A DNA stretch of 62,015 nucleotides from assembly GCA_003480165.1 (NCBI GenBank), contig QUIQ01000009.1, positions 1 to 62,015 on the forward strand, in the 5' to 3' direction. The position numbers were made by a program, and so were the translations under genes. Origin of the DNA: Firmicutes bacterium AM41-11. Lineage in GTDB: Bacteria; Bacillota_I; Bacilli_A; Erysipelotrichales; Erysipelotrichaceae. Below, in pieces: positions 18,897 through 20,645 of this stretch (its first letter is position 1; the number at the start of each line of letters is the position of its first letter). The notes under the pieces are model-generated. The model made no database searches, was not told the DNA's origin, and was given only the letters and a program-made list of their open reading frames with translations.

Positions 18897-20645
18897 ATGG
18901 AACAGATTTTACATGCAACACTTCGTTGTGTAACCCCACCAAACGAAGCACAATTGGAAAAAATGAAAGCTTTCTTAGCCGAACATTACCACTGTGATTC
19001 TGTGGAGCTGGAAATCAAACAAGATCCTTCTGTTCGTGGTGGTTTTGTTTTGAATGCAGGCAATGACGAATACGATTGGTCTATGCGTTCAAGACAAGAA
19101 AGATTGAATGATCAAATTAAAAAAGCCCGTGATGAAGCCATTCAAATGGATAAAAGCGGTTCTTTGATGTCCATTCTAAAAGAAGCCGTTGAACAATTTG
19201 AAGATTCAGCTACGAAAAATGAAGTCGGATTTGTCGATACCGTTGGTGATGGTATTGCTACAATATCTGGCTTAGAACATGCCATGTATGGTGAAGTTGT
19301 CGTTTTCGAAAATGGAACTAAAGGTATGGTACAAGATATTACCGAAGACGGGATCGGGGTCATCTTATTTGACCAGGAAGGAACCATTGGTCAGGGAACC
19401 AAAGTTTCCCGTACCAAAAGACAAGCTGGTATGCCAGTCAGTGATGCCTTTTTAGGCCGTGTTGTCGATCCATTAGGAAATCCGATTGATGGATTAGGAC
19501 CTATTGATGCCAAAGAGATGCGTCCAGTTGAAGAACCGGCACCAAGCATTATTGATCGTAAACCCGTTACAACCCCAATGGAAACGGGAATCCTTGCGAT
19601 TGATTCAATGTTCCCTATTGGACGTGGACAACGTGAATTGATTATCGGAGACCGGCAAACCGGAAAAACATCGATTGCCTTAGATACGATTTTGAACCAA
19701 AAAGGTAAACGCTGTATCTGTATTTATGTCTCTATTGCTCAAAAAGCTAGTACAGTGGCTAACTTAGTCAATACCTTAAAGAAAAATGATGCAATGGATT
19801 ATACCATTGTCGTTACTTCAACAGCTGCCGATGCTGCAAGTTTACAATACATTGCTCCCTATTCGGCAACAAGTTTGGCAGAATACTTTATGCATCAGGG
19901 TAAGGATGTTTTGGTTGTCTATGATGATTTATCCAAACATGCCGTAGCCTATCGTACGATTTCGTTATTGTTAGGACGAAGCCCAGGACGTGAAGCATAT
20001 CCTGGAGATGTCTTCTATTTACATTCTCGTCTACTAGAACGAAGTGCCCGTTTATCCAATGAAAAAGGTGGCGGTTCGATTACTGCCTTACCAATCATTG
20101 AAACTCAGGATGGAGACGTTAGTGCATATATTCCAACCAATGTCATCTCTATTACCGATGGACAGATTTTCTTGGAAAGTGATTTATTCTTTGAAGGTCA
20201 GCGACCAGCCGTCAATGTCGGATTATCCGTCAGCCGTGTTGGTGGTGCAGCCCAAACCAAAGCCATGAAAAAGGCTTCGGGATCTTTACGTATTGATTTA
20301 GCGCAATATCGTGAGATGAAAGAATTTACCCAGTTCGCATCAGACTTAGATGAAACTACGAAAAAGCAGTTGCAACATGGTCGAGTATTAATGGAATTAT
20401 TGAAACAACCATTGAATCATCCTATGAGTCAAGCAGATCAAGTTATGGCTTTAGTTGTTGCGGATGCTAATTTATTGAATGATGTAGATCCGGAACTTGT
20501 CAAAGATGAAGAAATGAAATTATTGGCATGGCTCAATGAAAAGCACAGTGAATTTGCCAGTGAATTAAATACAACCCAAGTATTAGATGATAACTTGAAA
20601 GATCGTATTATTGCGGCTGCAAAAGAATATCGAGGGCAAAAATAA
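18897..20645 (+). CDS. atpA: ATP synthase F1 alpha with N-terminal delta C-terminal-domain-like fusion
   Basis: The 582-residue product is about 80 longer than normal alpha. Residues from about 92 on are a complete alpha: N-terminal helix, beta barrel, Walker A GDRQTGKT (251-258), VVYDDLSKHAVAYR, GRSPGREAYPGD and the arginine-finger segment SVSRVGGAAQTKAM. Residues 1-75 instead resemble the C-terminal domain of delta/OSCP: a beta strand LHATLRCVTPP, helix NEAQLEKMKAFLAEHY, DPSVRGGFVLNAG (43-55) and WSMRSRQERLNDQI (61-74). No gene for the delta N-terminal domain occurs between atpF and here. Internal Met84 and Met91 have no convincing ribosome sites, so the fusion is probably translated whole, placing three delta-like domains per F1. 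The alpha call is certain; the delta homology is strong by motif. Confidence 0.93.
   Translation: MEQILHATLRCVTPPNEAQLEKMKAFLAEHYHCDSVELEIKQDPSVRGGFVLNAGNDEYDWSMRSRQERLNDQIKKARDEAIQMDKSGSLMSILKEAVEQFEDSATKNEVGFVDTVGDGIATISGLEHAMYGEVVVFENGTKGMVQDITEDGIGVILFDQEGTIGQGTKVSRTKRQAGMPVSDAFLGRVVDPLGNPIDGLGPIDAKEMRPVEEPAPSIIDRKPVTTPMETGILAIDSMFPIGRGQRELIIGDRQTGKTSIALDTILNQKGKRCICIYVSIAQKASTVANLVNTLKKNDAMDYTIVVTSTAADAASLQYIAPYSATSLAEYFMHQGKDVLVVYDDLSKHAVAYRTISLLLGRSPGREAYPGDVFYLHSRLLERSARLSNEKGGGSITALPIIETQDGDVSAYIPTNVISITDGQIFLESDLFFEGQRPAVNVGLSVSRVGGAAQTKAMKKASGSLRIDLAQYREMKEFTQFASDLDETTKKQLQHGRVLMELLKQPLNHPMSQADQVMALVVADANLLNDVDPELVKDEEMKLLAWLNEKHSEFASELNTTQVLDDNLKDRIIAAAKEYRGQK

Follow-up and report, generated by a model that had tools for sequence, protein, structure and literature searches.

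A delta C-terminal domain joined to the alpha subunit of F-type ATP synthases in gut Firmicutes, a fusion that has repeatedly lost the delta N-terminal domain

The window analyzed here, the whole 62,015 nucleotide stretch of contig QUIQ01000009.1 of Firmicutes bacterium AM41-11 (Erysipelotrichaceae), contains an operon for an F-type ATP synthase in which the genes for subunits a, c, b, alpha, gamma, beta and epsilon were all found, c and beta by sequence reading and the rest by Pfam matches. The gene for alpha also codes for the C-terminal domain (CTD) of subunit delta (OSCP). The features are the following:

17489..23369, + strand: whole atp operon, one operon, in the order a-c-b-(delta-CTD-alpha)-gamma-beta-epsilon
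17489..18169, + strand: atpB, subunit a, 226 aa (Pfam ATP-synt_A, E 1e-42)
18181..18402, + strand: atpE, subunit c, 73 aa (ORF, by sequence reading)
18420..18884, + strand: atpF, subunit b, 154 aa, own ORF (Pfam ATP-synt_B, E 2e-13)
18897..20645, + strand: fused delta-CTD-alpha gene, 582 aa (ORF, Pfam and alignment with 9jc1_I)
18900..19115, + strand: delta/OSCP C-terminal domain, residues 2-73 (Pfam OSCP, E 3.8e-11, and fold match)
19116..19160, + strand: linker from the delta CTD to the alpha N-terminal helix, residues 74-88 (alignment with 9jc1_I)
19161..20642, + strand: complete alpha, from residue 89, with N-terminal helix SILKEAVEQFE (Pfam and alignment)
20645..21577, + strand: atpG, gamma, 310 aa (Pfam ATP-synt, E 1.6e-88)
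21568..22953, + strand: atpD, beta, 461 aa (ORF; beta by sequence reading)
22956..23369, + strand: atpC, epsilon, 137 aa (Pfam ATP-synt_DE_N and ATP-synt_DE)

The fused open reading frame starts with an ATG and begins 12 bases after the b stop codon (18882-18884); right behind that stop lies a ribosome-binding site rich in purines (gaggggg, 18884-18890). Because only 24 nt separate the b stop from the start of the CTD, there is no room ahead of it for the delta N-terminal domain (NTD). A complete delta (NTD plus CTD) was not found in the window operon, where the OSCP profile is matched over positions 100-171 of 172 only, inside alpha. In known enzymes the delta CTD is the docking place of the b C-termini, and the C-terminal end of the window b, DEQLYDEFLNDMK, is common to the b subunits of other fused operons when their C-termini are compared. 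The window also carries two FMN riboswitches (Rfam RF00050), at 17101-17214 (-) and 4233-4351 (+), the former followed by an ORF (16352-17002, -) that reads like a riboflavin ECF transporter component.

Several lines of evidence identify the N-terminal piece as the delta CTD. With the first 98 residues, Pfam OSCP was matched by residues 2-73 at 43.8 bits (cut-off 22.3), and with the whole 582-aa protein by residues 3-73 (E 1.4e-10), followed in the same frame by ATP-synt_ab_N, ATP-synt_ab and ATP-synt_ab_C. Searching PDB sequences with the 98-residue piece gave OSCP/delta chains on top (best E 3.1e-4) and, at E 0.12, chain I of 9JC1, which carries a description of delta joined to alpha. The AlphaFold2 model of the piece, made from a 14-row alignment (pLDDT 81.9), has the order strand-helix-strand-strand-strand-helix. 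Foldseek against the PDB gave 27 matches at E <= 1e-3, all 27 to chains of ATP-synthase entries, and those with chain names shown by the PDB sequence search were delta, OSCP or b-delta; chains of 9JC1 came after them, at E 0.05-0.06. A model of the whole 582-aa chain (pLDDT 58.6) was set aside and that of the CTD alone taken instead. The delta CTD of the fused gene is under purifying selection: in the comparison with Absicoccus porci pN was 0.235 and pS 0.80, synonymous changes being saturated, and 10 residues are invariant across 14 rows. Residues 1-100 gave 308 protein matches at E <= 10, the best 120 of the 308 all at E <= 1e-30, more than chance would give. A previous sequence-only reading of this DNA had proposed a delta/OSCP CTD-like part fused to alpha, to be checked by a structural match, in an operon where the delta NTD is missing, and all of this was borne out. 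F1 holds three alpha subunits and there is a single fused gene, hence three delta CTDs per F1, which supports the three tethered delta-like domains that the same reading had deduced.

The reading had also taken the fusion to be undescribed, which does not hold, since Ueno et al. (2025; PMC12229609) built and solved one and reported natural ones. They used a Bacillus PS3 FoF1 in which the delta NTD was deleted and the CTD fused to alpha (PDB 9JC1), giving an enzyme with up to three stalks and one a subunit with each, an average of about two stalks and an extremely low share of three-stalk particles. The H+/ATP ratio was 5.8 +/- 0.4 for the engineered enzyme versus 3.0 +/- 0.2, every one of the CTDs is able to take up a b2-a stalk, the NTD is what restricts stalks to one, and every ATP synthase so far has just one a subunit (PMC12229609). 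In the Discussion of the same article Acidaminococcus fermentans is given as a natural delta-alpha gene fusion with the NTD missing, UniProt entries G4Q3K6 and A0A1I2C5T3 are said to have "similar features" and to await experiment, and the question of natural multi-stator enzymes is raised from the engineered enzyme and these few database sequences (PMC12229609). Beyond this article, no other natural delta-alpha fusion was evident in the open-licence literature.

We compared the window protein with 9JC1_I by phmmer, and residues 13-571 aligned to 12-569 with a single gap of three residues, located ahead of the alpha core. Like the engineered enzyme, the window has the delta CTD in frame on the alpha N-terminus, no NTD and no separate delta, the last judged for the operon. 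The two differ in the linker, natural in the window, the engineered chain being three residues shorter, and in the C-terminal domain of epsilon, kept in the window (Pfam ATP-synt_DE) but removed in the designed PS3 enzyme. Acidaminococcus fermentans belongs to the Negativicutes, a different class from that of the window organism. Its fusion, compared by the published description, similarly joins delta and alpha and misses the NTD. The delta-CTD-alpha architecture is thus known, if barely described, and the window is a further natural example of it. In mycobacteria it is b that is fused to delta, with alpha separate. A solved chain of this kind, 9vkp_d, was among the results of the PDB search. 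This arrangement also joins a part of the stalk to delta, but it is not the one of the window, where b is an ORF of its own (154 aa) with its own stop.

How common is this architecture? A scan of contigs gave 28 loci, of which eight code for a delta-CTD-alpha (578-595 aa), six for a fusion that includes the NTD as well (674-684 aa) and 13 for a separate delta just upstream; in the remaining one alpha is cut off and the locus was left unclassified. Named strains with the delta-CTD-alpha layout are Holdemanella biformis DSM 3989, Absicoccus porci YH-panp20 and Catenisphaera adipataccumulans DSM 25799. Fusions of both delta domains to alpha, 674-684 aa long, were seen in Lachnospiraceae (loci L004-L006 and L011-L013 among others), including the complete genome of Lachnospiraceae bacterium GAM79, and nothing on a full-length delta-alpha fusion was evident in the open-licence literature. 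One of these loci, L004, is titled uncultured Bacteroides sp. and has a Lachnospiraceae-type fused atp operon near that of genome G671; it is probably a mis-binned contig.

A profile of the fused CTD was then matched to genomes, giving counts of fusions that are lower bounds set by the E cut-offs. In the family of H. biformis the fusion was found in 6 of 272 genomes (E <= 1e-12, frames of 580-760 aa). The family of GAM79 gave matches in 123 of 397 sampled genomes (E <= 1e-14), in 57 of them within a frame 560 aa or more in length. Genome G399 (693-aa frame) was rejected as fused, a separate delta being present, and its removal leaves 56 of 397. The resulting 62 fused genomes comprise 36 without NTD (30 plus the six of the H. 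biformis family) and 26 whose fusion contains a delta of full or nearly full length, the Pfam matches of the latter starting at profile positions 5-27. To call an NTD we required that its profile match lies before the CTD, and the call is supported by the spacing from the stop codon of b to the first position of the CTD. In 41 CTD-only rows this spacing runs from -1 to 74 nt, with a median of 20, and in 31 NTD-bearing rows it is 262-290 nt, with a median of 284; near-identical loci were counted separately, and one row without a b stop (see below) stays outside the 41. The sizes are bimodal with no intermediates, i.e., the NTD is either present or gone.

The most extreme case was found in genome G348, the only one of its genus, in which the b ORF runs stop-free into the delta CTD and alpha to give a chain of 778 aa (L144:5656-7992). 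Genes for a, c, gamma, beta and epsilon surround it, and no further b was found in this genome over the Pfam cut-off of 28, with two weak matches at 18.4 and 17.0 bits. A distinct metagenome cluster, P0121 (34 member sequences, 5 contigs), codes for the same b-deltaCTD-alpha chain in 781 aa, is 97% identical to it over the first 270 residues and was the only match among the 7993 candidates listed. The only in-frame TTG of the stretch from b to the CTD, a possible internal start, is absent from P0121. Judging by these sequences, b and alpha would be made 1:1, with three b per F1 unless the chain is processed; because b, delta CTD and alpha are one chain, the canonical ratio of two b to three alpha would be impossible without such processing. 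The chain goes further than the mycobacterial b-delta in that alpha is included. We also observed, in one MAG contig only (L132:98-2365, - strand; genome G174, cluster P0122; labelled Holdemanella sp.), three tandem delta-CTD repeats before alpha, in a protein of 755 aa with a b stop-CTD gap of 26 nt.

We have searched for other copies of delta with the OSCP profile (E <= 1e-3) in 63 genomes, 62 after dropping G399. A separate delta was found in 22 of the 36 CTD-only genomes, including all six of the H. biformis family and genome G355, where it came as two pieces on different contigs, and in 19 of the 26 NTD-bearing ones. In the other 14 CTD-only and seven NTD-bearing genomes the fusion was the only OSCP match, and the single gamma gene was located beside it (gamma genes were counted in 29 genomes). 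Provided that the 14 genomes are complete, all F-ATPase work in them falls to the NTD-less enzyme. The claim that no delta gene is present stands for the window operon but should not be extended to the organism, given that both searchable close relatives, H. biformis and Catenisphaera, hold a complete delta elsewhere, as part of a second, canonical F-ATPase beside the fused one. The second operon of H. biformis (L059) has the order a-c-b-delta-alpha-gamma after ORFs that look like upp and atpI, and the fetched piece ends before beta and epsilon. As far as fetched, subunits and order are those of the window, and its delta CTD is homologous to that of the window, but delta is complete and separate (175 aa) and alpha has 512 aa. 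The delta of the second operon does not refute the fusion, because in H. biformis it comes with an a, c, b, alpha and gamma that belong to it, and because the fusion stands as the only OSCP match in the 14 other genomes.

The c subunits of the two operons differ at the ion site. Those of the fused operons (window and L001-L003) have the pattern GLGIG/GIGIG...AEATAIY, GLGIG in the window, which is without the Gln of the Na+ site, while the canonical operons of H. biformis (L059:4334-4576) and Catenisphaera have GIGQG...AETTGIY. We take the Gln and the ETTxxY pattern to be the Na+-site ligands of Ilyobacter-type rings. Because this pattern appears in the canonical c and is missing from that of the fused operons, the window enzyme is probably H+-coupled and the canonical F-ATPase of H. 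biformis and Catenisphaera may be Na+-coupled.

To follow the history of the fusion, a quick tree was built with 103 alpha cores, leaving out NTD, CTD and linker. All 74 fused rows formed one group (SH-aLRT 91) inside a separate-delta lineage, and the canonical alphas of H. biformis, Catenisphaera, GAM79 and RUG305 were located far outside it (100). A single clade of CTD-only fusions was rejected (p-AU 2.8e-31). Assuming that the NTD is never regained, this tree gives 20 losses, and 16, 11 or 5 after collapsing branches with support under 80, 90 or 95. A more careful tree of 78 rows, from which 25 rows, mostly long-branched or near-duplicate, had been dropped by hand, requires the CTD-only label to change at least 10 times. 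In it, unlike in the quick tree, a separate-delta row (L134) is placed within the clade of fused rows (98/83), which makes a second fusion or a re-splitting possible. A single fusion event is nonetheless likely from these alpha phylogenies, and on the same basis the delta NTD has been lost from the fusion repeatedly, at least five times. The window falls together with H. biformis, Absicoccus porci and Catenisphaera (100/99), beside rows of the Lachnospiraceae family, and a second set of the H. biformis family (G172 and G174-G176) branches elsewhere, a topology that suggests two transfers from Lachnospiraceae to the H. biformis family. In the scenario that the trees point to, a separate delta next to alpha would have become a full-length fusion in the Lachnospiraceae lineage, the NTD would then have been lost many times, and the window type would have reached the Erysipelotrichaceae as a second F-ATPase.

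We propose, and consider reasonably probable as a whole, that the window codes for a working F-ATPase of the H+ type with a delta CTD on every alpha, one to three b2-a stalks and a raised H+/ATP. Delta would remain only as its b-binding CTD, on the N-terminus of every alpha, and the three alphas of each F1 would offer three identical b2-docking sites. With the symmetry-breaking NTD gone, one to three b2 stalks could be built in, an a subunit with each, and the natural enzyme would fill more than one docking site. More stalks would mean more H+ per ATP and work at low proton-motive force. From the published structure, three NTDs should not fit the one central seat atop F1, and the repeated NTD loss after fusion fits the multi-stalk proposal for this reason. 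Natural multi-stalk function is plausible on this analysis, at roughly even odds; no purified natural enzyme of the delta-CTD-alpha kind was found in the open-licence literature, and its stalk number is what we infer. Some observations go against the proposal: NTD-bearing fusions persist in 26 of the 62 genomes, in seven as the only F-ATPase found, so the NTD is not always shed; even the engineered enzyme had about two stalks on average; and the separate delta of 22 of the 36 CTD-only genomes and of the two searchable relatives of the window could in principle act in trans.

Such action in trans, by which the complete delta of the canonical operon would give the fused F1 its NTD clamp and the fused CTD would be an extra, accords with the separate delta found in six out of six fused genomes of the H. 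biformis family and in those 22 overall. It is nevertheless very unlikely in view of the 14 CTD-only genomes with no other OSCP match (E <= 1e-3) and one gamma, of the distance in the tree between the canonical and the fused alpha of H. biformis, and of the different ion-site motifs in the c subunits of its two operons. We find it hardly credible that mature alpha is without the delta-like part, through a start at Met84 or Met91 or because the part is cut off. Methionines do occur in frame at residues 84 and 91, but the good ribosome-binding site lies at 18884-18890 and none is visible before either of them, both are missing in Catenisphaera (L003), and the CTD is selected, with its 10 invariant residues. 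An operon without a separate delta gene, in a group with relatives that have a second F-type operon, might also be thought to code for an N-type ATPase or to belong to some other lineage wholly without delta. N-type operons have no delta and contain atpQ and atpR. However, the window operon has the ordinary gene order, no extra genes appear in it, and a delta CTD (Pfam OSCP) contradicts this reading, whose probability we regard as negligible.

The most serious competitor, still unlikely in our opinion, is an enzyme that has three delta CTDs but a single b2-a stalk, either for want of a or b or because further stalks are hindered by the first one; the role of the fusion would then be just to secure delta to F1. 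The window operon indeed has one a gene and one b gene, and the engineering study points the same way in stating that all ATP synthases so far have one a subunit and that the engineered enzyme averaged about two stalks, with very few triple-stalk particles (PMC12229609). The same study shows that an enzyme of this layout takes several stalks (PMC12229609), which speaks for the multi-stalk proposal, as do the repeated loss of the stalk-limiting NTD in natural fusions and the b-deltaCTD-alpha gene, which would give three b per F1 unless processed.

What is new here is that the fusion is frequent in gut Firmicutes, that it has a full-length form, that the NTD is lost repeatedly and that a b-delta-alpha chain exists. 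Our analysis supplies named strains, genomes with the fusion as the only F-ATPase found, NTD-bearing fusions as natural controls and the b-delta-alpha chain, which was found outside the window and bears on the assembly of fused enzymes. A wider statement, which we consider about as likely as not, is that gut Firmicutes hold a lineage of naturally multi-stalk, multi-a-subunit F-ATPases, in which the fused delta triples the docking sites, the NTD has been shed repeatedly and the b-delta-alpha branch fixes at least three b. If true, the rule of one stator per F-ATPase would be broken, and H+/ATP would be set by how many stators there are and not by c-ring size. Where a relative has two F-ATPases, the fused one would be a low-force H+ machine beside a canonical one with a Na+-type c motif. 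The matter bears on how energy-poor gut anaerobes produce or use ATP when the proton-motive force is low.
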